Source: an uncultured Desulfobacterales bacterium (GTDB taxonomy: Bacteria; Desulfobacterota; Desulfobacteria; Desulfobacterales; JAHEIW01). From it: 57,587 bases of DNA. The notes under the pieces were generated by a model. The model had not been told where the DNA came from, did no database searches, and saw only the letters and a list, made by a program, of their open reading frames with translations. Shown piece by piece: positions 5,181-51,152 of this stretch. Within the stretch, counting starts at the first letter, position 1, and each line of letters begins with the position of its first letter. Made by a program: the position numbers and the translations under genes. Location: NCBI GenBank assembly GCA_947259495.1, contig CAMYLV010000017.1, forward strand, positions 1 to 57,587, read 5' to 3'.

Positions 5181-6242
5181 TCAGGTGGTTTTATCTGCCG
5201 GGTAGCTGCCCAGATACTTCATCCATTTGGTCAGGTCATCCATTTCTTTTAGAACCGCGGCGATTTTTTCATGTTTATCTGACCCTTCAAAATCGAGGAA
5301 GAAGCTATAGTTGCCCGGATCCGAGCGCAGCGGCATTGAAGCGATGCGTGTCAGATTGATCTTTGCATCCGCAAACAGCTTGAGCACCGCATACAGCCGG
5401 CCGGCTTCGTGAGGCACGGCAAAGATGATGGACGTCTTATCACCGTTGTCGGGATGCGGCTCTCGGGCCAAAAGCAAAAACCGTGTGGAATTGGAAGGAC
5501 CATCCTCAATTCCCCCTTTAATAATCTCGAGGTCATACAATTCAGCGCATAAAGAACTGGCAATGGCCGCCGCTGCTCTGGGGTTTTCGCGAGCCAGCAT
5601 CTTGGCCGCCCCGGCGGTATCATAGTAGGGGCGCGGTTCAAGCTTGTTGCGCATCAGAAAGTTGCGGCACTGGGCCAGGGCCTGCGGATGCGAAAAGACC
5701 TGGCGGATTTCACGATAATCCGTTGCCTCGGTGGCCAGCAAACAGTGGCTGACGGTCACCTTGATCTCACCGATGACTTTCAGATCGGTGGTTGTCAGCA
5801 GATCATTGACCTGCGTGACCGCGCCCTCTAACGAGTTTTCAACCGGCACCACCCCGAGATCGAAATAGCCGTCTTCGACGCCGCGGAAGACATCGATAAA
5901 CTCCAGACAGGGAATGTAGGCGCCATCGGGAACCAGCTGCCGGGCAGCCACCTCACCGTAAGCTCCGTGCTCACCCTGAAATGCCGCCAGCGACCGGTCT
6001 TCATCCTGCAGCCGTTTGGTCTCGTCGATAATGGTATGGAGCAGCCGCCGGGTAAATGTGCTCTCTATCAGATCCAGGTTTAAGCGTTCTGCACGGGCCA
6101 GCATGTCATTTTCTTGTTGCGGGTCACTCAGGGTTTCCTTGAATTTTTTTGACCGTAGTGCCAGCCCCATTCTTTCCTGGAGCAAAACCAGCAGCTCCCG
6201 ATCAATCTTACTAATTTTTTTACGAATTTCTTCCGGTTTCAT
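5181..6242 (-). CDS. pheA: Bifunctional chorismate mutase / prephenate dehydratase (P-protein)
   Basis: Converts chorismate to prephenate and then phenylpyruvate for phenylalanine. Residues 1-80 or so are an AroQ-type chorismate mutase (KISKIDRELLVLLQERMGLA). A prephenate dehydratase domain follows (AFQGEHGAYGE, VPVENSLEGAV, and the catalytic TRF in SNSTRFLLL), then a C-terminal ACT domain. The length of 353 residues is normal. The ACT motif usually written ESRP reads ASMP here, so phenylalanine feedback may be weakened. It is the last gene of the aro operon, seven bases after the DAHP synthase gene. Its stop lies in a short dispersed motif. Confidence 0.95.
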   Translation of the reverse strand: MKPEEIRKKISKIDRELLVLLQERMGLALRSKKFKETLSDPQQENDMLARAERLNLDLIESTFTRRLLHTIIDETKRLQDEDRSLAAFQGEHGAYGEVAARQLVPDGAYIPCLEFIDVFRGVEDGYFDLGVVPVENSLEGAVTQVNDLLTTTDLKVIGEIKVTVSHCLLATEATDYREIRQVFSHPQALAQCRNFLMRNKLEPRPYYDTAGAAKMLARENPRAAAAIASSLCAELYDLEIIKGGIEDGPSNSTRFLLLAREPHPDNGDKTSIIFAVPHEAGRLYAVLKLFADAKINLTRIASMPLRSDPGNYSFFLDFEGSDKHEKIAAVLKEMDDLTKWMKYLGSYPADKTT

Positions 6243-6249
6243 TATTGCC

Positions 6250-7095
6250 TCACTTTGCCAATTTCATTTTGCCGGCCGACTCAGGTGGCAGCTTATTTAA
6301 AAAAGACGTCAACGGTCTCAGGCGCTTCATCATGTTTGCAAAAATATCGGGCGTCAGGGCCTGGTCGGCATCACACAGGGCATTTTCCGGTTTATGATGC
6401 ACCTCGACGATCATGCCGTCTGCTCCGGCGGCGGCAGCTGCCATGCTCATCGATTCGATCAAGCTGATACGCCCGGTGCTGTGAGTTGGATCGATGATGA
6501 TCGGTAGATGACTTAACTCTTTTATGGCCGGTACCGCACTGAGATCCAGCGTATTGCGGGTATAGGTTTCAAAGGTTCGAATTCCGCGCTCACAGAGAAT
6601 GACGTCCGGATTACCCTCACTCAAAATGTACTCGGCACAATTGAGCCATTCTTCGAGTTTGGAGTACATGCCGCGCTTGAGCAGTACCGGGCGTCCTGAT
6701 TTTCCGACTTCTTTAAGCAGAGAGAAATTTTGCATATTGCGGGTTCCGATCTGCAAAACATCAGCGAACTCGGCCACCCAGGAGACATCCCGGGGGTCGA
6801 CCACCTCGGTGATGATGGGAAGTCCGGTTTCCTGTCTGGCTTTTTCCAGTATTTTCAGGCCTTGAAGACCGAGCCGCTGGAAGGCATAGGGCGATGTGCG
6901 CGGCTTAAATGCGCCGCCACGCAGCATATCCGCACCGGCAGCCTTGACTGCCCGGGCGGTATCCAATAACTGCGCTTCACTTTCCACGCTGCAAGGCCCG
7001 GCAATCACGACAAAATCATGGCCGAATTCAACACCGGACACCCGGACAATCGTACGCGCCTCGGTTGCTCGCCCCACAAGTTTAAGGTTTTTCAT
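6250..7095 (-). CDS. aroF: 3-deoxy-7-phosphoheptulonate synthase, class I-beta
   Basis: Condenses phosphoenolpyruvate and erythrose 4-phosphate to DAHP, the first step of the shikimate pathway. The 281 residues carry the class I-beta (KDO8P-synthase-like) motifs [35 protein letters not shown] and DPTHSTG. There is no added ACT or ferredoxin-like regulatory domain. The ATG at 7095 follows GAGGATT, while the in-frame GTG at 7110 lacks a site. It overlaps aroQ by 14 bases. A second DAHP synthase of a different class opens the same operon, so this enzyme is the redundant partner. Confidence 0.93.
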
Positions 7096-7594
7096 GGTTT
7101 GAATCCTCACTGGCCTGAATCACTAATGCAGGCCCCTCGGGTTTAGTAAGCAATTGCGTCAACCCTTCCAAGGCCAGCAGATAGCCCCGGGGCCCGAATC
7201 CTGAAATTCGAGCCGTGACGATGTCGGAAATCAATGATATATGACGAAAGGCTTCCCTTTTGGTTGTGTTGGAAAGGTGTATCTCGACAAGCGGTATATT
7301 TAGCAGAGAAAGGGCATCCCGGATGGCGATACTGGTATGTGTGAAGGCTGCCGGATTGATAATGATCCCATCAAATGAATCGCGTGCCTGTTGGATCTGA
7401 TCAACAATCTCGCCTTCATGATTGGATTGGAAGGTTTCCATATGAAGCCCCAACCGGTCAGCTTGCGCCTTCAGCGCGGCATTTATTTCCTTGAGGGTTC
7501 GATGCCCATAGATATCCGGTTCCCGCGTTCCAAGCATGTTGAGGTTGGGTCCATGAATGACTAATATTTTATGATGCGCCGGGTTCTTTCCCAT
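7082..7594 (-). CDS. aroQ: 3-dehydroquinate dehydratase, type II
   Basis: Dehydrates 3-dehydroquinate to 3-dehydroshikimate. The 170-residue protein shows the type II signature: [16 protein letters not shown] with the catalytic Tyr, [29 protein letters not shown] and [16 protein letters not shown]. It is slightly longer than usual (about 145-150) because of a C-terminal extension that overlaps the next gene. It lies between tyrA and the I-beta DAHP synthase in the aro operon. Confidence 0.95.
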
Positions 7595-7612
7595 TTGATT
7601 TACTCCCGTAAG

Positions 7613-8341
7613 TTAATAGCATTGTAACTGGTCTTCAATTTTTTGCATGGCCTGCATAAACGCGGCCCGTTTTTTTTGTGCGTACGGATTATAGCGGTGC
7701 ATGTCATAAAATAATTGCCAGGTATCATGCTCCACGACCTCCAGTATATGCAGCAGCCGTTTATACCCCTCGCTGTCTATATCCAGCGGAGCAGCGCCGA
7801 ATTCAGATAAGGTTCTTCCGATATAATGGGTCAGTGCCAGACTGACGGCAATTTGCTCATCATGATCCTCCGGGGTCGATTCAATCAGAACCAATTCTTT
7901 CGATGCCAGATAGGTTTTGATCTTTCGATATTGTTTTTTATCGATTCGGATCGGGCTTAAAAAGATTTTGCGGTCTTTTAAGGAGTCAGAAGCGCTGTCC
8001 GGTCCAAATATGGGGTGGGTCGCCAGAATCGAGACCGTTTCAGGCAACGACGCTTTCATCCATCGTGTCGGATAGACCTTTACCGAGCAGACATCGACAA
8101 CCACGGAATCTCTTTTTAACAGAGGCCCAATTTTAATGAGAACCTCCTTCAATGTGGAAATCGGAACGCATAAGATAACGATTTTTTGCTGACAAACCGG
8201 TTTTAGAGATGATGTCCGGGCGCCGCTTTTTTTGATTTCAGCTGATTTTTCGGTTCGATTAAAAACAAAAACGTCAAAATCTTCGGACAGATACCTGGCG
8301 GTCAGTTTCCCGAAGCGTCCCAAACCAATGATGCCGATCAT
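7613..8341 (-). CDS. tyrA: Prephenate (or arogenate) dehydrogenase
   Basis: Oxidative decarboxylation of prephenate for tyrosine. The protein opens with a Rossmann motif, GIIGLGRFGKL, and contains the conserved catalytic-histidine segment THPIFGPDS around residue 100. At 242 residues it is a short, ACT-less form. The cofactor cannot be read with certainty. It overlaps the upstream aminotransferase gene by an ATGA junction, indicating translational coupling. Confidence 0.88.
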   Translation of the reverse strand: MIGIIGLGRFGKLTARYLSEDFDVFVFNRTEKSAEIKKSGARTSSLKPVCQQKIVILCVPISTLKEVLIKIGPLLKRDSVVVDVCSVKVYPTRWMKASLPETVSILATHPIFGPDSASDSLKDRKIFLSPIRIDKKQYRKIKTYLASKELVLIESTPEDHDEQIAVSLALTHYIGRTLSEFGAAPLDIDSEGYKRLLHILEVVEHDTWQLFYDMHRYNPYAQKKRAAFMQAMQKIEDQLQCY

Positions 8342-9468
8342 AATGCCTCTGCTATCCGTTCAAGCCCATTTTTAAGATTTTCTTCTGAAACAGCGAACGA
8401 TATGCGCAAGTGCTTTGCCATGCCAAATGCCTCTCCGGCGACAACCGCCACGCCGGCCTGCTTTAACAGGCGCTCAGCCAATGCTTCAGAAGTTTCATCG
8501 TTTTTTAAAACCATTGACACATCCGGAAAAAGATAAAATGCTCCCTGCGGTTGAATACAGTCAAACAACGTTGATACATATTGAAGGGCCAGATCTCTTT
8601 TTTGCTGCAGCTCGGACTGCCGGGCTGAAAGCAAGTGTCCATCCAGTGACTGGGCGGCCAGGGCGCCGTATTGCGCAAAGGTGCAAACATTGCCGCTCAG
8701 ATGGCTTTGAAGTTTCGACAGGGCCGCAATTATTTGCCCGGGGGCTGCGATGTACCCGATTCTGAAGCCTGTCATGCTGTAGCTTTTTGAAAAACTGCGC
8801 GTCACAATTAGCCGGTTGCGGTCACACGCGGTGTCGAACATGCTCGCATGAACACTCCCATCATAAACAAATGCACGATAGGCTTCATCCGCTACAATAA
8901 ACAGGTTGTGATCCGCTGCCAATCGCGCGATTTTTTTTAGATCTGTCAGTGGATACACCGCCCCGCTGGGATTGTTGGGCGAGTTGATCAGAATGGCTTT
9001 TGTCCGTTGCGTAACGGCGCGCTCAATGGCTTCACAATTCAGCTGATGATTTTTCGTGGCGACCGGCACCGGCTTGCCCCCGGCCAGTTTGACCTGCTCG
9101 ACAAAGCTCACCCAGAATGGCACGGGGATAATCACCTCATCTGCAGGATCAGTGATCACTTGAAAGATCATATACAAAGCCTGCTTGGAGCCATTCGTAA
9201 TCAGGATGTTGTCGATATCGCATCCGTTGAATTGCACTGCCAGCTGGGTTCGGAGCTCGGAAAGACCGTTTACCGGACTGTAGCGGGTTTTCTGGGCGTC
9301 CAGGGCAGTTTTTGTGGCGTCGATAACGGAAGTCGGTGTATCAAATTGCGGCTCCCCCACAGCCAGATCGATAATCTCCCTGCCTTCACGGCGCAACTGC
9401 TGGATCAAGGCTGTAAAGGCAACCGTTTGTGATCCTGCAATGGCCTGAATTTTAGCGGATAGTTTCAT
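8338..9468 (-). CDS. Class I/II aminotransferase, probably aromatic or aspartate type
   Basis: A PLP-dependent fold type I aminotransferase of 376 residues. Visible motifs are [21 protein letters not shown] and the Schiff-base lysine in [15 protein letters not shown], followed late by the substrate-carboxylate arginine region LRISFAVS. The family (AspC subgroup Ib) covers aspartate, prephenate and aromatic transaminases. Its place between aroC and tyrA suggests it makes tyrosine and phenylalanine from their keto acids, or arogenate from prephenate. It overlaps aroC by 17 bases. Confidence 0.9.
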
Positions 9469-10546
9469 TTGTTCTCATTTTCTGCCGCAGCGCGAGGTCG
9501 ACCAAAACCAATGCAGCCATGCTTTCGACAATGGGCACGGCGCGCGGCACCACACAGGGGTCGTGACGCCCCCTGGCTTCGAGAACCGTATCGTTGCCCT
9601 CAAAATCAACGGTTTTTTGGGGCAGGCTGATGGTTGCCGGTGGCTTGAAAGCGACCCTAAAAATAATGGGTTCGCCATTGGATATGCCCCCCTGAACGCC
9701 GCCGCTGTGATTGGTCCGGGTGCCTAAATGCGTCCCTTTTTTAATGAACACATCATTGTGCGCGGATCCGTACATGCGAGAACCGGCAAAGCCCGAGCCG
9801 ATTTCAAATCCTTTGGTCGCCGGAATCGACAGCATGGCCTGGGCCAGCAACGCTTCGGCTTTATCGAAAACAGGCTCTCCCAACCCGGCGGGGACATTGC
9901 GGCACATGCATGTAATAATACCCCCCAGGGAATCATCGGCCTGCTGCGCTGCTTCAATCGCGTCTGTCATTTTTTCCGCTGTTTGCGGGTCGGGACAGCG
10001 AACCGCAGATCGATCGACTTCTTTGCGAATAACGCTCATCGTGTCCGGTGATGGTGCTTCAATCGTAGAAACGGTGCTGACCCAGGCAACTATTTCAATA
10101 CCGTATCGTTCGGATAAAAATTTTTCGGCAATGGCACCAGCGGCAACGCGGCCAATGGTTTCTCTGGCACTGGCGCGCCCGCCGCCGCTTAAAGCCTGGA
10201 CACCATATTTCATCTGGTAGGTATAATCCGCATGCGAGGGTCGCGGCACCGAACGCATTTGGCGATAATCCGCGGGTCGCTGATCTGTATTTTTAACCAT
10301 CAACGCGATCGGCGTGCCCAGGGTTCGGCCGTTATCGATCCCCGACAGGATTACGACCCGGTCGGCCTCGTTTCTTGAGGTCGTCAACTTGCTCTGGGCG
10401 GGTCGCCGCCGGTCCAGCTGGAGCTGAATATCGGTTTCGTCCAGAGATATTCCCGGCGGACAGCCGTCAATCACGGCACCCACCCCCTGGCCGTGTGACT
10501 CACCGAAGGTGGTGACGCGAAACAGGGTGCCAAATGAACTGGACAT
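9452..10546 (-). CDS. aroC: Chorismate synthase
   Basis: Makes chorismate from 5-enolpyruvylshikimate 3-phosphate using reduced FMN. The 364-residue protein has the family signatures [46 protein letters not shown] and the C-terminal [16 protein letters not shown]. The ATG at 10546 follows AAGGAGAACC. The upstream in-frame start at 10564 is rejected. Its 5' end overlaps the 3' end of aroK by 47 bases. Confidence 0.97.
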
Positions 10547-11090
10547 GAGGGTTCTCCTTATCAATTAGTTTCCATGACGCATTTAATTTTTCAATAATTG
10601 TTGCAGTAATTTCATCAACCGGCACGTCATCGGTATGGATGGAAAAATCACTGGCGCTCTCGTAATAGGGACTTCTCTGCAGCAGTATGTCTTCGATTTC
10701 TTCCATCTTTCCCCTTTCGGTCAACGCCGGCCGGTAATCGCCGCTGTTTTTATCCGCATGCATTCTTTTCCGAATGGTTGCTGCAGTTGCGCTCAACCAG
10801 ACGACCGGACCGCTGGTTTTCATTGCCTTGATGTTATCTGCATCCAGCACCACCCCGCCGCCGGTGGCCACCACCTGCCGATCCTTAGTGCAGATCTGCA
10901 CGAGTGTTGAACGCTCCCTGCGGCGAAAAGATTGCCAGCCTTCGGTGTCGATGATGTCTTTGATGCTTTTTCCACATTCCTTGATCACCCGCTTATCGGA
11001 ATCAACAAAAGACCAGTCAATGGCAGCGGCAATGGATTGGCCGACGGTTGATTTGCCGCTACACCGGTGTCCAATCAAAAAAAGGTTCAT
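10500..11090 (-). CDS. aroK: Shikimate kinase
   Basis: Phosphorylates shikimate with ATP. The 196-residue protein has a Walker [10 protein letters not shown] at residues 7-15, the shikimate-binding DSDKRV and FRRRE segments, the GGGVVL loop and the lid region YRPALTERG. It is about 20 residues longer than usual because its C-terminal tail runs over the aroC start. Its start overlaps the aroA stop as ATGA. Confidence 0.94.
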
Positions 11091-12358
11091 GACCGATACA
11101 ACCCTTCAAAAATGTGCCAGAAGGACGGAAAGGATTTTTCGACACAGCTTTCGTTTCGAATGCAGATGCCCGGCACCCTCAATCCCGCAATGGCAAAGCT
11201 CATGGCGATACGGTGGTCATTATAGGTTTCAACGACGAAACCCTGCGGCTTGCCGCCTTTGATGGCCAAGGTGCTTTCAGTGCAGCTGGCTTCGATGCCC
11301 ATTTTGTTGAGCTCGGTTACCGTGGCGGTTAAACGATCGCTTTCCTTTGATTTCAGATGGGCTACATTTTTGATCACCGTTATCCCTTTAGAAAATGCCG
11401 CCACCACGGCCAGTGTTGGCACCTGGTCGGGCATATCGGCCAGATCGGCCTCAATCGCCCGCAACGGGCCACCGACAACACTGATTCCGTCTGACTCCCT
11501 GGCAACGCGGCACCCCATCTGTTGCAGCAGGTCGACAAAGCGCACATCCCCCTGGGTTGAATCTGCCTTGATTCCCGTCACTTTTATTTCAGCACCGCTA
11601 ATCGCCGCCGCGCCCCAAAAATAGGCCGCCTGTGAGCAATCCGCTTCCACCGTATAATTGCCGGCACGATAAAGCTGTCCGCCCGGGATTTTGAATTTTC
11701 GATAATCCTCGCGTTCAAGCCGGATACCGAAGGTTTCCATCAACGCCACCGTCAGGTCGACATAGGGTCTGGATACCGGACCGCTTGTAACCCGAATATC
11801 AAGTCCTTGTGGAGTACGCGGCGCCATCAGGAGCAGCGCTGAAAGGTACTGGCTGCTGTTTTGACAGTTAATATCCACCTTTTTTGCTTTGATTATTGCA
11901 CCGGTTACCTCAACGGGTGGACAGCCATTGCCTTTTAATGATCGCGCCTGAATACCGATCTGTTGCAGGGCATCTGTAAGATCCTTTATCGGGCGCGTTT
12001 GCATACGGGCATTGCCGGTCAGGGTATAGGTTCCTTTACCCAGGGCCGCCACCCCGGTTAGCAGGCGCATCGAGGTTCCGGAATTCCCCAGATAAATTGG
12101 AGCGTCGCAAGGTTCCAGCCGACCGCCCAGCCCATCAACGCGCACCTCAGTGCGGTTGACTTTTATTTGGATCCCCATCTGCCTCAGGGCTTCAACGGTG
12201 AGGAGCGTATCTTCACTGACAAGGGCGTTTTTAAGGATAGACACCCCGTCTGCTAACGCCGCCGCAATCAGCATGCGATGGGTATAACTTTTGGATCCGG
12301 GTACTGTCACCCGGCAGCTGTTAACCTTTTGTGCTTTTATTTCTTTCAGTTGATTCAT
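11087..12358 (-). CDS. aroA: 3-phosphoshikimate 1-carboxyvinyltransferase (EPSP synthase)
   Basis: Transfers the enolpyruvyl group of PEP to shikimate 3-phosphate. The 423 residues show PGSKSYTHRMLIAAALADG at the N-terminus (substrate-binding Lys), LGNSGTSMRLLTGVAAL with the PEP-binding loop, QYLSALLL, LKSKESDR and NDHRIAMSFA near the C-terminus. Length and motif order are normal. It lies 12 bases after aroE. Confidence 0.97.
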   Translation of the reverse strand: MNQLKEIKAQKVNSCRVTVPGSKSYTHRMLIAAALADGVSILKNALVSEDTLLTVEALRQMGIQIKVNRTEVRVDGLGGRLEPCDAPIYLGNSGTSMRLLTGVAALGKGTYTLTGNARMQTRPIKDLTDALQQIGIQARSLKGNGCPPVEVTGAIIKAKKVDINCQNSSQYLSALLLMAPRTPQGLDIRVTSGPVSRPYVDLTVALMETFGIRLEREDYRKFKIPGGQLYRAGNYTVEADCSQAAYFWGAAAISGAEIKVTGIKADSTQGDVRFVDLLQQMGCRVARESDGISVVGGPLRAIEADLADMPDQVPTLAVVAAFSKGITVIKNVAHLKSKESDRLTATVTELNKMGIEASCTESTLAIKGGKPQGFVVETYNDHRIAMSFAIAGLRVPGICIRNESCVEKSFPSFWHIFEGLYRS

Positions 12359-12370
12359 TTTTAGATTGCA

Positions 12371-13192
12371 TCATATTTCTTTAGTCTGCAGCGCCTGCAA
12401 AACTGCATTTTGCATGACGCCCACCGGTGCCTTTTGGCCGGTCCAGAGCTCGAATTGATGTGCTCCCTGAAATACAAACATGTCAACACCGTTGATGATC
12501 CGACATCCTCTGGCGGCGGCGTCTTTTAATAATCGGGTATGCAATGGATTGTAAACGATATCCATGACCACCATTTCTTTGGATAATAAGTTGTTCGCAA
12601 GCGGGGTTGCATTGGTATCCGGATGCATCCCAATCGGCGTGGTGTTGATCAGGATGTCATAACGGTTCGGCCGACATTCATCTAAAGGTAAAAAATCCGC
12701 CTGCAGATCGGCGGCCAGCTGCTCTCCGTTTGTCCGGGTGCGGTTCAAAATGGTCAGGTGTCCGCCGGCGGTTGTCAACCCGAATCCGATGGCACGGGCC
12801 GCCCCGCCGGCACCGATGATGGCTATCGATTTGCCCTCAATCGATGTTCGGACCCGCAAAGCCTTGATGGCGCCCTGGCAGTCGGTGTTAAAGCCGCTCA
12901 GTTTGCCGTTGTTGTTGACGATGGTGTTTACCGCCCCGATCCTTTTTGCGGCCTCATCAATTTCATCAAGGTATTCCATAACGGCGACCTTGTGGGGCAG
13001 GGTGACGCTGAGGCCTTTAAAATTCAACGCCCTGATGCCGTTTAGCGCCGAACCCGGGTCGGTGACCTTCAGCGCTACGTAAACCGCGTTGCAACCGGCT
13101 GCCGCAAACGCCTGATTGTGCATCACCGGGCTGAGGCTGTGCGCTACCGGATTGCCGATCAGGCCGAAAAGGGAGGTGTTTGCATCAATCAT
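12371..13192 (-). CDS. aroE: Shikimate dehydrogenase
   Basis: Reduces 3-dehydroshikimate to shikimate with NADPH. The 273 residues contain GNPVAHSLSPVMHNQAF (substrate site), VTLPHK with the catalytic lysine, NTDCQGA, the GAGGAARAI nucleotide loop followed by NRTR (NADP-type), and the FQGAHQFELWTG segment near the C-terminus. It overlaps the chorismate mutase gene by an ATGA junction. Confidence 0.96.
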   Translation of the reverse strand: MIDANTSLFGLIGNPVAHSLSPVMHNQAFAAAGCNAVYVALKVTDPGSALNGIRALNFKGLSVTLPHKVAVMEYLDEIDEAAKRIGAVNTIVNNNGKLSGFNTDCQGAIKALRVRTSIEGKSIAIIGAGGAARAIGFGLTTAGGHLTILNRTRTNGEQLAADLQADFLPLDECRPNRYDILINTTPIGMHPDTNATPLANNLLSKEMVVMDIVYNPLHTRLLKDAAARGCRIINGVDMFVFQGAHQFELWTGQKAPVGVMQNAVLQALQTKEI

Positions 13193-13503
13193 GTTGGCTT
13201 TCGATCTGTTTTTTGTACGTTGCGGCCTTCAACCATGATGGCTGTAAAAATATGCCGCAGGCCGTCATTGCTCAGCGGTCCGCTGTTTTTATGCCGCAGA
13301 CGGTGAATGATTTCTTCTTCCCGCTGGCGGTCGGTAATCTGAATGCCGCCCTGATTCTTCGCACTGCCAATTTGCTGTGCAAGCCAGAGCCGCCGGTTGA
13401 TTAAATCCATAATTTTTTCGTCAATCTCATCAATCGCCAGGCGCAATGCTGAGATCTCGGCATTCGGGATGCCGCCGGTTTTGTCAGGAATTGATTGCGA
13501 CAT
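13189..13503 (-). CDS. Monofunctional AroQ-class chorismate mutase
   Basis: The 104-residue all-helical protein matches the AroQ fold: LRLAIDEIDEKIMDLINRR (first helix with the catalytic Arg region), LAQQIGSAK with the active-site Lys, and DRQREEEIIHRLR. It is a second chorismate mutase activity, in addition to the domain in PheA. It may supply prephenate to TyrA or bind the operon's DAHP synthase, as is known for other small AroQ mutases; that is inference. It overlaps aroB by 20 bases. Confidence 0.9.
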   Translation of the reverse strand: MSQSIPDKTGGIPNAEISALRLAIDEIDEKIMDLINRRLWLAQQIGSAKNQGGIQITDRQREEEIIHRLRHKNSGPLSNDGLRHIFTAIMVEGRNVQKTDRKPT

Positions 13504-14518
13504 ACAGGGTCTCCTTGAGTTCTTCTATGGCGATTTGCTCCACCACAGCATTGCCGATTCCATTGAGCAGGACAAAATGGATGCAGTCGCCCGCTCTTTT
13601 TTTATCTTTCTCAACCGCATTAAAAATTATTTGCGGGTTGGATACCGAACCATTCGGAAGCTTCAGCCTTTTCAGCAGACCGCGGAGACGCTGATCTTCC
13701 TGCACTGACAGCAGGCCCCTTTTGACCGATGCGGCTGACGCCAGCACCATGCCCATGCTGACCGCTTCGCCGTGCGCAACACCACTGGCTTTTTCAATCG
13801 CGTGCCCGAAGGTGTGGCCGAAGTTCAACAGGCGGCGCTCCCCTTTTTCCGTTTCATCCCGGCTGACAATTGATGATTTAATGCGCACCGACGCCAGCAC
13901 CAGTTTTTCGATGGCCTGACGATCAAGTGCCAATATGTCTTCGGCATGCTGTTCAAGATAGGTGAACAGATCGGCATCCGCGATGGCCGCGTGTTTGACG
14001 ATCTCTGCCAGGCCGCAACAGATTTCCTTGGGCGGCAGAGTTTTTAAAAATTCAGGATCACAAATGACAAATTCAGGCTGATGGAACAGCCCGACCATAT
14101 TTTTGTATCCGTTAAAATTAACGCCGTTTTTCCCGCCGACGCTGGCATCTACCTGTGCCAGTAAGGTGGTCGCCACAAAACCAAACCGCAGGCCCCGCAG
14201 AAAGGTCGAGGCCGCAAATCCGGTAATATCGCAGACAATGCCGCCGCCAATACCGACGACAAATGCGGAGCGATCCGTCTGAATGGACAGCAACTGCGCG
14301 TAAATTTCCTGAATAGTGTCCAGGGTCTTGTTCGCCTCCCCGGTACCGATGGTGATCACGTTGCCGCCTATTGAATCCAGCGGATATAAATGCCGCACAT
14401 TACTGTCTGTAATAATGATCGGCCTTGTCTCTGGAATATAGCGCTGTAAGTTTTCCAGGCGCTCACCGATTAAAATGCGCGACGAACCGGAATCTGTGTT
14501 GATGGTAAAGGTTTTCAT
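13484..14518 (-). CDS. aroB: 3-dehydroquinate synthase
   Basis: Cyclises DAHP to 3-dehydroquinate with NAD and a divalent metal. Residues include the NAD-binding GGGIVCDITGFAASTFLRG, the QVDASVGGKNGVNF segment, EIVKHAAI and the metal ligands in NFGHTFGHAIE and HGEAVSMGM. The ATG at 14518 starts the typical N-terminus, and the 35 extra upstream residues in frame are not family-like. Length 344. It follows the first DAHP synthase gene by 11 bases. Confidence 0.96.
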   Translation of the reverse strand: MKTFTINTDSGSSRILIGERLENLQRYIPETRPIIITDSNVRHLYPLDSIGGNVITIGTGEANKTLDTIQEIYAQLLSIQTDRSAFVVGIGGGIVCDITGFAASTFLRGLRFGFVATTLLAQVDASVGGKNGVNFNGYKNMVGLFHQPEFVICDPEFLKTLPPKEICCGLAEIVKHAAIADADLFTYLEQHAEDILALDRQAIEKLVLASVRIKSSIVSRDETEKGERRLLNFGHTFGHAIEKASGVAHGEAVSMGMVLASAASVKRGLLSVQEDQRLRGLLKRLKLPNGSVSNPQIIFNAVEKDKKRAGDCIHFVLLNGIGNAVVEQIAIEELKETLYVAINS

Positions 14519-14529
14519 ATTCAATTTTT

Positions 14530-15606
14530 CTAGGATGCCTGTTGATATTTTGGCGGATCCGCTTGCTGCAGATTTGCATGTGCCCAAAGCATTAACTGTT
14601 CGGTGGTTTCCCACGAAATGCATTCATCCGTGATGGAAACACCATATTTTAAGGCCGAAGCGTCACCGCTAAAAGCCTGATTGCCTTCATGCAGATTGCT
14701 TTCAAGCATCAAACCGATCAATGCTTCGTTACCGGTCAGGTACTGGCCCATAACGTTTTTCCAGACCACTGATTGTCCCTGGAATTTTTTCATTGAATTG
14801 GCATGCGAGCAGTCCACCATAATCGTTTCCGGCAAGTTTTTTTCAATCAGCCTCAGGCGCGCTTCTTCCAGACTGATGGGGTCGTAATTGGGTCTTTTGC
14901 CGCCCCTTAAAACAATATGCACCCATGGATTACCGCTGGTTTTAACCACACAGGTTTTGCCGTCCTGGTCGATGCCCAGAAAACTTTGCGGGGCCCGGGC
15001 GGCCATCAGGGCATTGATGGCGGATGATAGATTGCCGTCCGTGCTGTTTTTAAAGCCCACCGGCATGGACAAACCGCTGGCCAACTCGCGATGCGTCTGG
15101 GATTCGGCGGTGCGGGCCCCGATGGCCGACCAGCTGACCAGATCGGCGACATACTGCGCGGTAATCGTATCCAGCATTTCGGTGGCGGCGGGCAGTCCCA
15201 TTTCATTAATCTGCCTTAACAGGCTGCGTGCTTTGCGCAACCCGGCCGTCATGTCACAGGTTCCGTCCAGATAAGGATCGTTGATCATTCCTTTCCACCC
15301 CACGGTGGTGCGCGGTTTTTCAAAATAGACCCGCATGACGACAAACAGGGTTTCGGCCACCTGATCGCGCAGCCGGTTTAAGCGGGATGCGTATTCAAGA
15401 GCCGCCTTTTCATCATGGATGGAACACGGCCCCACAATCACCAGCAGGCGGCGGTCCCTCTTGCGCAATATGTTTTCGATGCAGTGTCGTCCGAAAACCA
15501 CTGTTTCTTTGGCCCCGGCGCTGATTGGAATTTCCTTTTTTAAGATGTGCGGCGCTGTAAGCGCTTGATATCCCTTAATTCGCAGATCGTCGGTAGTTGA
15601 TTTCAT
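14530..15606 (-). CDS. 3-deoxy-7-phosphoheptulonate synthase, class I-alpha
   Basis: The 358-residue protein is of the E. coli AroF/G/H type: [57 protein letters not shown] and [10 protein letters not shown] are all present. This class is normally feedback-inhibited by Phe, Tyr or Trp through the same chain; which one applies here cannot be read. The ATG at 15606 follows GAGGGGC, while the TTG at 15621 lacks a site. It is the first structural gene of the aro operon, and its position behind an attenuator makes it the prime control point. Confidence 0.95.
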
Positions 15607-15660
15607 TTTTTTGCCCCTCAAGTCTCCGTATAATTGTTTACCCTCTGATTGCAGCGAATA

Positions 15661-15689
15661 AAAAAGCCGTGATGGCTATTCACGGCTTT
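15661..15689 (-). terminator. Second terminator hairpin of the aro operon leader
   Basis: On the minus strand AAAGCCGTG (15689-15681) pairs with CACGGCTTT (15671-15663) around a nine-base loop, followed by T residues. It lies 55 bases upstream of the first aro gene, just behind another terminator hairpin, so transcription must pass two barriers. Confidence 0.8.
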
Positions 15690-15731
15690 AAAAAAACAAT
15701 AAAGCCGCGAGCTTCTGTCTGCCCGCGGCTT
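15690..15731 (-). terminator. First terminator (attenuator) hairpin of the aro operon leader
   Basis: AAGCCGCG (15731-15724) pairs with CGCGGCTT (15709-15702), and TATTGTTTTTTT follows on the minus strand. GGGCAGAC in the left arm and loop (15724-15717) is the exact complement of GTCTGCCC (15769-15762) near the end of the leader ORF. An alternative pairing therefore exists that could compete with this terminator. Confidence 0.8.
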
Positions 15732-15752
15732 AAAATCAAAATAGATGATTCA

Positions 15753-15839
15753 TCAACCCATGGGCAGACCCCTCCGGTAGAAATAAAAATAAAAGAACTG
15801 CCGGGATTGACCGATATGTTGTCTAGTTTTTACCATCAT
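15753..15839 (-). CDS. Leader peptide with seven consecutive Phe/Tyr codons
   Basis: A 28-codon ORF, MMVKTRQHIG to the TGA at 15755-15753, contains the uninterrupted run TTC TTT TAT TTT TAT TTC TAC at 15797-15777, read FFYFYFY. It ends 22 bases before the first of two terminator hairpins and 147 bases before the first aro gene. This is the architecture of pheA/pheST-type ribosome-mediated attenuation. When charged tRNA-Phe or tRNA-Tyr is scarce the ribosome should stall and allow read-through into the Phe/Tyr biosynthetic operon. The weak point is the poor ribosome-binding site (only GAGAAA upstream). Confidence 0.82.
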   Translation of the reverse strand: MMVKTRQHIGQSRQFFYFYFYRRGLPMG

Positions 15840-15863
15840 GGTTTCTCATTGTGATTTTTACGC

Positions 15864-15892
15864 TTACTAATAGGGATTCATGCCGGTGTCAA
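15864..15892 (-). promoter_or_regulatory. Candidate promoter of the aro operon
   Basis: On the minus strand TTGACA (15892-15887) is followed after 17 bases by TAGTAA (15869-15864). A transcript would begin about 15-20 bases before the Phe/Tyr leader ORF, the expected layout for an attenuated operon. Confidence 0.55.
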
Positions 15893-15951: not shown

Positions 15952-16047
15952 ATGTACCCATTAAAACCAACCCGTACAGACATTTCAAGCAATAATTGGT
16001 GGTGGCGCATCTTCAACAGGGAGCTGTGCCCACCCAGCGCGAACTAA
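15952..16047 (+). CDS. Trp leader peptide (TrpL-like) with three consecutive Trp codons
   Basis: A 31-codon ORF runs from ATG at 15952 to TAA at 16045. Residues 16-18 are WWW, encoded by TGG TGG TGG at 15997-16005, in the context SSNNWWWRIFN. An AGAGG ribosome site precedes the ATG. Two strong, mutually exclusive hairpins with T-runs follow before the trpD-like gene. Three Trp codons in a row in a random 31-codon ORF would be very unlikely, and the layout matches classical trp operon attenuation. Unlike E. coli, the operon controlled appears to be a single gene. Confidence 0.88.
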   Translation: MYPLKPTRTDISSNNWWWRIFNRELCPPSAN

Positions 16048-16065: not shown

Positions 16066-16103
16066 AACCGTGGGCTTCCTCCCAGAGGACCCACGGTTTT
16101 TTT
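16066..16103 (+). terminator. Attenuator hairpin 1:2 of the Trp leader
   Basis: AACCGTGGG (16066-16074) pairs with CCCACGGTT (16090-16098) and is followed by seven T residues. Its right arm CCCACGG can instead pair with CCGTGGG at 16120-16126, which would be the antiterminator. Confidence 0.85.
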
Positions 16104-16114
16104 GATGACTATTT

Positions 16115-16149
16115 AAAGGCCGTGGGGCCAAGATCCCACGGCCTTTTTT
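16115..16149 (+). terminator. Attenuator terminator hairpin 3:4 of the Trp leader
   Basis: A 12-bp stem pairs AAAGGCCGTGGG (16115-16126) with CCCACGGCCTTT (16135-16146) around an 8-base loop and ends in a T-run. It is 50 bases upstream of the trpD-like start. The repeated arms CCGTGGG/CCCACGG occur twice, giving the four-segment logic of a transcription attenuator. Confidence 0.9.
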
Positions 16150-16198: not shown

Positions 16199-17278
16199 AT
16201 GATCAATCAAGCAATTACGCAGGTAGCGAATGGAAACAACCTTAGCGAAAAAGATATGATCGACGTCATGGAGATGTTTTTGAACGGTATGGCAGAACCG
16301 GCGCAGGTCGGCGCATTTATCACCGCTCTGAGAATAAAAGGGGAAACTGTAGAAGAGATTACCGGAGCGGCTAAAGCCATGCAGGCCAGGACAAAGAAAA
16401 TCGAGCTCGATGAACCTTTGGTTAATATTGATCGAGATGAAATCAATGTCGAAGAGGAAACGATTCTCGACACCCACGGCAACGGAGCTAACGGCACCCA
16501 AACCTTTAATATTTCTACGGCAACAGCTTTTGTGGCTGCCGCTGCGGGACTTAAAGTGGCCAAATACGGTAACTGGGCGCTTTCCAGACAGTGTGGCAGC
16601 GCTGATGTGCTCATCAGCCTCGGCGTAAATCTGGACATCAATTTTGCCGATGTTGAAAAATGCATCCAGGATATCGGGATCGGTTTTTTATATGCACCGC
16701 TTTTTCACGGCGCCATGAAAGCAGTGGCGGCACCCAGGCAGCAGATTGGGTTGCGGTCTATTTTTAACCTGCTTGGGCCTCTGGCAAACCCTGCCGGAGC
16801 GACCGCCCAGGTGCTGGGGGTCTATGATGCTCATCAAACTGAAAAGATGGCAAAGGTTCTTCAAAAACTCGGTACCCGGCAGGCATTTGTGGTATGTGGC
16901 GAAAAGACAATAGACGAGATCAGCATCTGCGGCCCCACCCGGGTGTCACAACTTAAAGACGGAGCAATAAAAACTTTTGAAATGACCCCCGAAGCATACG
17001 GTTTCAAACGGTCAGCGCCTGAAGCCATTAAGGGCGGAGATGCGCGCGAGAATGCCGTCATCATCCGTAAGATATTAGATGGACAAAAAGGGCCGCAAAG
17101 AGACGTGGTGCTGTTAAATGCCGCCGCAGCTTTTGTATCAGCTGACCTTGACAGCGATTTCAAAGAAGGCATCCAGCGCGCTAGGGAAGCGGTTGATTCC
17201 GGCCGTGCCGCGGAAAAACTTGATTTTCTGATTGATTTTACCCGGCAATGCGATGTTTTTGTGCGCCGGGTGATGTAA
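16199..17278 (+). CDS. Anthranilate phosphoribosyltransferase family protein (TrpD-like, divergent)
   Basis: The 359-residue protein has the TrpD fold and order: helical N-terminus, TFNISTATAFVAAAAG, GSADVLISLGV, LYAPLFHGAMK, FNLLGPLANP, and IDEISICGPT with the metal-binding Asp-Glu. Two substrate loops differ from the family: GTGGDG is replaced by a one-residue-longer HGNGANG, and KHGNR reads KYGNW; VRREL reads PRQQI. It may be a genuine TrpD with drifted loops or a related transferase with another substrate. A Trp attenuator precedes it and AAGGAGG is the ribosome site. No other trp gene is adjacent; the next gene is on the opposite strand. Confidence 0.8.
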   Translation: MINQAITQVANGNNLSEKDMIDVMEMFLNGMAEPAQVGAFITALRIKGETVEEITGAAKAMQARTKKIELDEPLVNIDRDEINVEEETILDTHGNGANGTQTFNISTATAFVAAAAGLKVAKYGNWALSRQCGSADVLISLGVNLDINFADVEKCIQDIGIGFLYAPLFHGAMKAVAAPRQQIGLRSIFNLLGPLANPAGATAQVLGVYDAHQTEKMAKVLQKLGTRQAFVVCGEKTIDEISICGPTRVSQLKDGAIKTFEMTPEAYGFKRSAPEAIKGGDARENAVIIRKILDGQKGPQRDVVLLNAAAAFVSADLDSDFKEGIQRAREAVDSGRAAEKLDFLIDFTRQCDVFVRRVM

Positions 17279-49914: not shown

Positions 49915-51152
49915 GATTTAATGAAATCAGCACCACGGGCTGCATCATCGATGACGTCCAAAGCCAGATGTTCCGGATCTGTCGGGATTCCGGCCAAAAC
50001 TTTACAGGACAACCCGATGATTTCATCGTCAATTACGAATTGCTCATGGGCCACGGTGATCATGCAATTGAGCATCCCAGCAGCATGGTGCACGTAGTTG
50101 GAGCCTCCCATTGCCGCCAGCATCGTTGTCATTGCTTTTTCCCAACCTGCCTGGGCGTCGGGTATTTTGGCGTCCGTTAACCCGGAGGAGTTGTAGTTCG
50201 GGACCTTGATGTGGTCGGCCAACTGGTGAATTGCGGCATTCATCATACCACATTCTACCGAGCCTCCCTGGTACCCTAAATTCCAGAGGTTGGCCCTACC
50301 CGGAATCCCGCCGTAAAGTACCGCTGCGCCGGGCTGGATCATCTGGCAGATTGCAATACCCGCCAGCTGCTCGGCGTGTGTTTGAACGAGCGTGCCGGCC
50401 ATGGTAATCGGGGAGCTCACCCCGGCCATGGGTGCGCAGGAAAGTGCAACAGGGATTTGATGACGCACCGCTTCCAGCATAATACGGGTCGAATGGGTGC
50501 ATAGCCGCATGGGGCTGATGGCAAAGGAGGCGATGACCGAAACAAAAGGTCGCGCTTTGAGATTTTCTAAATCACCGGCAACCATGGAAGCAATGTCCAT
50601 CATTTTGTGAAAACCATCAAAGTCGTTTACGCCCGCCATCACGTGTTTGGCGGTGGACTTGAGGCATGCGTAGAATACATTTTCATCGTAGAGCGCTTCG
50701 GGAATATCTTTGGGAATGCAGGGGCGCAGAAAAAAATGGATGTTGTCCAGCTGATCGACCAGCCGCCCCAGATTATAGAGATCCTGCAGTGTGGTATGAC
50801 GGGCTTCCCCGGTCTCCAGATCGAGGATTTTGATGGCCGCACCTCCCGTGCCCAAATAGACGCGATCATCTTCAAGGTACAGATCATTTTTCCCATCCCG
50901 GCTGTACAGGACGACCCGCTTAGGCGCCTTGCTCACCAGCTCCATGAGCTGCTCCCTTGGAAAATAAATGCGGGAATCCTCGCGGTCCACCCGCATACCA
51001 AATTCCTCCATCATTTCCAGCGTCTCGTCCAGACCCGCTTCATATGAAAAACCGGTTTTTTCAAGCACAGACAATGCCGCCGCATGCAGGCTCTCCACCT
51101 GCTCGCAGCTGAGCGGCCGATAGTGACCTCCCTGCAAACCTTTGTGGCTCAT
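49911..51152 (-). pseudogene. Trimethylamine methyltransferase family (MttB-like) protein, truncated or split
   Basis: The 413 residues cover the MttB TIM barrel from YRPLSCEQVESLHAAALSVL to the C-terminal third, including SCAPMAGVSSPITMAGTLVQ and GSNYVHHAAGMLNC, but stop at GADFIKS, where the family continues for about 60 more residues. That tail is present in another frame (49720-49914). There is no in-frame amber codon, so it is a non-pyrrolysine member like the glycine-betaine or carnitine enzymes. It sits 54 bases after the corrinoid protein gene in a putative operon. It may be functional as two chains. Confidence 0.8.

Follow-up and report, generated by a model that had tools for sequence, protein, structure and literature searches.

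A probable Phe/Tyr-codon transcription attenuator, with a candidate two-terminator relay, before aromatic-pathway genes of Desulfobacterota

In the enterobacterial his operon attenuator, segments A to F pair in alternation and the final hairpin alone is known to act as a terminator, and the ilvGMEDA and thr leaders each have a single terminator and combine the codons of two or more amino acids. Rfam contains a Phe leader family of the pheL-pheA type. In C. glutamicum, a DAHP synthase gene with a Phe/Tyr leader is already known: the aroR leader (Phe-Tyr-Phe) precedes the aroF (DAHP synthase) operon and stalling raises transcription (Neshat et al. 2014, as summarized in the passage on this system in PMC11802643); the same passage describes a response to Phe and none to Tyr. 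In excerpt, a comparative study from 2005 counts phenylalanine with the pathways under attenuator control and places tyrosine under T-boxes (PMC1262725), and a 2016 survey of Proteobacteria regulons, also in excerpt, reports attenuation of trp and pheA in Gammaproteobacteria (PMC5343134). Among the matches listed in a search of titles and abstracts, we found no published description of such a leader in Desulfobacterota, a weak negative drawn mostly from open literature.

We analysed 57,587 nt of DNA from an uncultured Desulfobacterales bacterium (hereafter, the window), whose source assembly (G000) comprises 4.4 Mb in 69 contigs and is 97% complete. A sequence-only reading of the window had claimed a minus-strand Phe/Tyr leader ORF, a switch pairing and two terminators, situated before the DAHP synthase gene of a twelve-gene aromatic set. 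The coordinates were verified in the sequence, as was the complementarity: segment 3 (GGGCAGAC, 15724-15717) is the exact complement of segment 2 (GTCTGCCC, 15769-15762). Family matches likewise confirmed the genes, which form a predicted operon in the order alpha DAHP synthase, aroB, chorismate mutase, aroE, aroA, shikimate kinase, aroC, aminotransferase, prephenate dehydrogenase-like, aroQ, beta DAHP synthase and prephenate dehydratase (ending at 5181), the chorismate mutase, shikimate kinase, aminotransferase and dehydrogenase calls lying under NCBIfam curated cut-offs. The named sequences most similar to the DAHP synthase come from MAGs labelled Deltaproteobacteria and Desulfobacterales/Desulfobacteraceae (89, 80, 80 and 78% identity). 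The features of the locus, and of a divergent Trp leader beside it, are collected in the table.

Features of the aromatic leader, its downstream genes and the divergent Trp leader (positions in the window)
Feature	Position	Strand	Basis
Putative promoter: TTGACA 15892-15887, 17-nt spacer, TAGTAA 15869-15864 (weak)	15864..15892	-	sequence
Leader peptide ORF MMVKTRQHIGQSRQFFYFYFYRRGLPMG, 28 codons, stop TGA	15753..15839	-	sequence; similar ORFs in relatives
Regulatory run, seven Phe/Tyr codons TTC TTT TAT TTT TAT TTC TAC (FFYFYFY)	15777..15797	-	
Segment 2 GTCTGCCC, codons Gly-Leu-Pro, antiterminator left arm, within last ORF codons	15762..15769	-	
Segment 3 GGGCAGAC, antiterminator right arm, overlapping top of terminator 1 (left arm and loop)	15717..15724	-	
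Terminator 1 AAGCCGCGGGC-agacagaa-GCTCGCGGCTT, segments 3 and 4, 11 pairs	15702..15731	-	
Terminator 2 AAAGCCGTGA-atagcca-TCACGGCTTT, segments 5 and 6, 10 pairs	15663..15689	-	
Alpha-class DAHP synthase, first gene of predicted operon, start codon provisional	14530..15621	-	NCBIfam PRK12755 502.7 bits, aroFGH 470.5 bits
Eleven further aromatic-pathway genes	5181..14623	-	
Divergent Trp leader peptide MYPLKPTRTDISSNNWWWRIFNRELCPPSAN and stop (WWW), second attenuator of like design	15952..16047	+	
Tandem terminators of Trp leader, cross-complementary, T1R:T2L -16.9 kcal/mol	16066..16146	+	
trpD, behind Trp leader	16199-17278	+	

The putative promoter makes a transcript start upstream of the leader ORF likely. 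In 12 of 14 inspected leaders, the window's included, the best-scoring promoter site is TTGACA or TTGACT, located 52-67 nt upstream of the leader start; a sigma-70 scan of the window did not have the TTGACA/TAGTAA site among its predictions. The 255-nt leader stretch folds with z = -3.67, and one of 200 shuffles was equally stable. The Rfam Phe leader and T-box models gave no match at gathering score in the window, and no Rfam family reached that score on the window's leader copy. The sole family to do so in the window, away from the leader, was PYLIS_3 (RF02510), the pyrrolysine insertion sequence of mttB, at 50081-50180 on the minus strand (63.6 bits); on this sequence match, TAG may be decoded as pyrrolysine in methyltransferases of the source organism.

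To follow the leader beyond the window, we collected 124 regions upstream of the alpha DAHP synthase gene in related genomes, among them second gene copies and one Scalindua-labelled MAG. A strict rule called for at least six aromatic residues in ten near the end of a short ORF, together with a T-tailed hairpin starting no more than 60 nt from the stop. By this rule a leader and terminator are present in 110 of the 124 regions, against one of 124 on the reverse strand and none of 68 control regions before DAHP synthases outside the order (one control being labelled Deltaproteobacteria). Compared across these sequences, the leader is conserved beyond chance, and the attenuation reading thereby came through the test that its author had set for it, the retention in relatives of an aromatic run before the hairpin. 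A looser rule gave 112 leaders with a terminator, after removal by hand of L006, L164 and L169; near-duplicate loci, seemingly one species from two collections, are L056/L141, L060/L181 and L061/L196. Both Phe and Tyr occur in the ten-residue window of all 112 leaders, a set selected for aromatic content, and the number of aromatic codons per ten-codon run varies from five to ten. Typical peptide endings read ...SGRFYFYFWYYFYTGLPGVR, a composite of relatives' peptides, and an end resembling GLP(G)VR is common. Elsewhere, short ORFs with the endings ...RYYYYLPFFC or ...RYYFLPYFS lie upstream of Colwellia/Thalassotalea-type DAHP synthase genes (L090, L105, L097) and fail the leader-plus-terminator rule.

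A Trp codon lies within the run in 44 of 112 leaders. At the one position where the Phe/Tyr run is broken, xGG codons of all kinds are frequent (TGG 36, CGG 13, AGG 10, GGG 8), so part of the Trp-codon frequency may reflect an RNA constraint on GG. Joint sensing of Phe and Tyr by one leader was proposed in the sequence-only reading and would be a departure from the nearest studied case, C. glutamicum aroR, which is responsive to Phe and not to Tyr.

We next consider the two RNA helices, which overlap and are therefore mutually exclusive. Of 105 leaders given, 103 were aligned (L039 and L024 left out); the 105-leader set already lacked L060 and L181, whose frames end early, and L170 and L173, which were without a terminator by the first finder. 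The antiterminator has the consensus GGUCUGCCYG:YRGGCAGACC over the 103 aligned leaders and is paired in 83.8% of cells; shuffled alignments give 79.4 +- 0.6, and slid controls do not exceed 45.8%. Two-sided changes occur in 58 cells against 20.8 +- 7.4 (0/500 shuffles), a comparison in which the shuffles ignore shared ancestry. Of the five measures, the two that relatedness inflates least are unremarkable and not above the shuffles: pairs with two-sided change (7 vs 5.9; 125/500) and further pair types (21 vs 18.8; 57/500). Terminator 1 is 95.5% paired with 72 two-sided cells vs 16.8 +- 12.3 (0/500 shuffles, shared ancestry again ignored), and all five of its measures exceed nearly all shuffles. 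RNAalifold, run on the same 103-leader alignment, predicted the terminator helix alone (8 pairs), the antiterminator helix being absent. Together, the conservation of the proposed switch pairing with compensating changes lends support to the pheA-type attenuation that the sequence-only reading had put forward. In L024 and L060 the ORF stops ahead of the Leu-Pro codons and the nucleotides are retained; because they outlast the reading frame, the Leu-Pro segment looks kept as RNA. Support for a 1:2 hairpin, as a protector or pause element, is weak (mean z -0.49; below permuted in 64 of 105 leaders).

Folding of the window leader with the ribosome placed at the Phe/Tyr run, the check that had been asked for, favoured antitermination: terminator 1 fell to 0.02 and terminator 2 to 0.03, and the pairing of the terminator 1 right arm with the terminator 2 left arm (T1R:T2L) reached 0.80. 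With the ribosome at the stop codon, the two terminators stood at 0.97 and 0.95. In the unconstrained fold, without a ribosome, 2:3 and T1R:T2L form and read-through is already favoured, whereas the E. coli trp leader terminates when untranslated. Across the 32 loci with two terminators, a ribosome mid-run left terminator 1 at an average of 0.50 at equilibrium, compared with 0.90 for a ribosome at the stop, and the pairing of segment 2 with T1L averaged 0.31.

The locus thus has the features of the attenuator class, namely a short ORF rich in product codons, an exclusive and conserved antiterminator and terminator, and a position directly before genes of the same pathway. From sequence and modelled folding, we consider it very probable that this is a ribosome-mediated transcription attenuator of the trp/phe type, probably relayed to terminator 2 where a second terminator exists. 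We infer that the leader is translated and that a shortage of Phe-tRNA or Tyr-tRNA, and in some relatives possibly of Trp-tRNA, would make the ribosome stall in the aromatic run. Segment 2 (GGUCUGCC) would then pair with segment 3 (GGCAGACC), blocking terminator 1 and admitting RNA polymerase to the operon. A ribosome that reaches the stop codon would instead cover segment 2, so that terminator 1 would form and transcription would end in vivo.

How far does the element reach? We built a covariance model of the leader and searched it against relatives (146 genomes) and the phylum (395 genomes). Matches at E <= 0.01 were obtained in 123 of the 146 relatives, which belong almost entirely to the same order, and in 217 of the 395 phylum genomes. 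Since matches at E <= 0.01 also occur in 7 of the 28 genomes that carry the control DAHP synthases (best E 3.2e-4), only far stronger matches count; by our count, 113 of the 146 relatives match at 1e-5 or better. From the upper parts of both match lists we opened 97 loci, 57 given directly and 40 picked further down, and for 20 of the latter, genomes with a leader already collected were passed over. The first recognized gene is 2-amino-3,7-dideoxy-D-threo-hept-6-ulosonate (ADTH) synthase, which we take to be the archaeal-type entry to the aromatic pathway, at 44 loci (L306 among them), alpha DAHP synthase at 22, shikimate kinase at 11, beta DAHP synthase at 9, aroC and chorismate mutase at one each, and acetate-CoA ligase at 2, with 7 unrecognized. 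Aromatic-pathway genes other than alpha DAHP synthase thus come first at 66 of the 97 loci. Of the 22 alpha DAHP synthase loci, 17 (window included) also contributed to the model. The leader stands before genes outside the model as well, which provides independent support for an aromatic role. As judged from these sequence matches, the element is not special to the window's operon, being spread through the order and found also in other genomes of the phylum. The two matches before acetate-CoA ligase alpha-type genes (L342, L351) have peptides ending ...NFYYFYYNEGRNLPAY and ...YYYYYYYYTKGRNLPAY, and our guess is that these loci perhaps serve aryl-acid salvage. Inspection by eye of 600 bases around the upstream side of pheS in the source genome revealed no leader.

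A second terminator is present in 32 of the 112 leaders by one finder; finders disagree, and L010 has a second terminator with one and none with the other. T1R:T2L, which amounts to -13.7 kcal/mol in the window's aro leader, is at or below -10 kcal/mol in 31 of these 32 loci and -9.8 in the remaining one, with a mean of -18.4 kcal/mol; pairing arms between genomes gave -17.0, and generic left arms gave -6.9. It is stronger than the opposite pairing, T1L:T2R, in 27 of 32 aro leaders (one tie), 9 of 10 trp leaders and 34 of 34 leaders before other genes, a bias that generic terminators do not show (50.5%). When arms were re-dealt among loci, the own T1R:T2L pairing was beaten in 1 of 5000 permutations for aro and 18 of 5000 for trp; for T1L:T2R the same test gave 295 and 2221 of 5000. 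The T1R:T2L core, examined in 51 distinct core pairs pooled from three leader classes (aro, trp and other genes; 3 of 76 skipped for want of an anchor), covaries at 93.1% vs 86.9 +- 1.0, with 26 two-sided cells vs 4.7 +- 2.6 (0/2000 shuffles, which ignore shared ancestry). Positions mismatched in terminator 1 are paired in T1R:T2L in 13 of 15 aro and 4 of 4 trp cases, a count that has no baseline and is not taken as proof. In 1.26 Mb of the source genome holding 260 terminators, there are five tandem pairs, and only the window's aro and Trp leaders are strongly cross-complementary. We also considered GCCGYGG hairpins as a genome-wide terminator fashion and rejected the idea, with 4 distinct sites in the whole genome vs 15 of the reversed control pattern.

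In the proposed relay, stalling would free the right arm of terminator 1 to pair with the emerging left arm of terminator 2 and so disarm the latter, and in the completed state both terminators would form. One stall would thereby disarm both terminators. When terminator 2 was folded complete in the stalled state at the 32 loci, it averaged 0.68 (median 0.84) and T1R:T2L 0.18; with the left arm of terminator 2 just emerged and its right arm unmade, T1R:T2L reached 0.69 when stalled vs 0.29 with the ribosome at the stop. As a complete terminator 2 outcompetes T1R:T2L, the relay in most two-terminator relatives would have to be kinetic.

The divergent Trp leader precedes trpD and has counterparts. 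Of 30 opened trpD loci, 14 carried an ORF in which two or more of five residues are Trp; L202, L211, L217 and L225 were dropped by eye, leaving a Trp leader at 10 of 30 (window included), and two terminators follow in 10 of 10. Neither a chorismate-binding enzyme (PF00425), and hence trpE, nor trpA (PF00290) was found in the source assembly, where trpD looks an orphan. In five relatives without a PF00425 match (G002, G004, G005, G069, G129), a Trp leader likewise precedes trpD.

Within the attenuator reading, terminator 2 might be just a back-up against leaky polymerases, its likeness to terminator 1 due to duplication and the relay pairing incidental. Such a spare would suit the 80 of 112 leaders in which that one finder shows no terminator 2 and the preference of complete terminator 2 over the relay in most relatives' stalled-state folding, and the likeness of the two hairpins could come from one old duplication. 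An unswitched terminator 2, however, would halt the operon even under starvation. The asymmetry of T1R:T2L and its covariation also speak against a spare, as do L358 and L364 (mutual near relatives) and L366, in which the left arm of terminator 2 fits the right arm of terminator 1 at the cost of a mismatch in the terminator 2 stem. We regard the back-up explanation as possible, though doubtful; from these pairings, terminator 2 is probably more than a mere spare, its left arm pairing with the right arm of terminator 1.

Two further explanations would dispense with codon starvation altogether. TnaC, which acts by nascent-peptide arrest, is the model for one of them, in which the conserved Gly-Leu-Pro end would make the leader a regulatory nascent peptide. 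The recurrence of the GLP(G)VR-like end speaks for such a peptide, but the frames of L024 and L060 end before Leu-Pro with the nucleotides kept, which makes a peptide-level role for GLP(G)VR unlikely, and segment 3 often changes together with the letters of segment 2, so that the constraint looks to be at the RNA level; we consider this explanation very improbable. The other, to which we give hardly any credence, is that the ORF is incidental to a leader working as a riboswitch or T-box or by binding a protein. Tyrosine genes do stand under T-boxes in other species, according to the excerpted part of PMC1262725, yet PYLIS_3, the window's one Rfam match at gathering score, lies elsewhere, and the trait that the leaders share is the codon run just before the switch.

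Returning to ribosome-mediated attenuation, we lean slightly towards its fullest form, a six-segment, two-terminator relay (2:3 and 4:5 vs 3:4 and 5:6) in which one stall opens both terminators, used in this lineage's aromatic (Phe/Tyr/Trp) and Trp leaders and kept while non-homologous first genes of the aromatic pathway were swapped. Many Desulfobacterota may thus control the shikimate pathway through one type of RNA element that senses codons for Phe, Tyr and perhaps also Trp, placed before genes for alpha or beta DAHP synthase, ADTH synthase or shikimate kinase, and the relay would offer a simple route to tighter attenuation.

Among known systems, the his attenuator shares more than four segments and alternating pairing with the present leader, which differs in that both 3:4 and 5:6 are terminator-like. 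The ilvGMEDA and thr leaders similarly join codons of several amino acids in one leader, but for other amino acids and with a single terminator. The order of leader peptide, antiterminator and terminator is also that of the E. coli pheL-pheA and pheST attenuators, which, as the relevant part of PMC11802643 describes them, concern Phe only and a terminal branch or a synthetase, unlike the Phe/Tyr leader here. Most alike is C. glutamicum aroR-aroF, likewise a leader peptide with Phe/Tyr codons before a DAHP synthase operon. In contrast to its Phe-Tyr-Phe, the leaders described here have five to ten aromatic codons in ten, include Trp in a substantial minority, belong to another phylum, often carry twin linked terminators and precede several different first genes. 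What is new relative to known attenuators is thus the long mixed Phe/Tyr run, the order-wide conservation, the different phylum, the exchangeable first genes and, probably, the relay.
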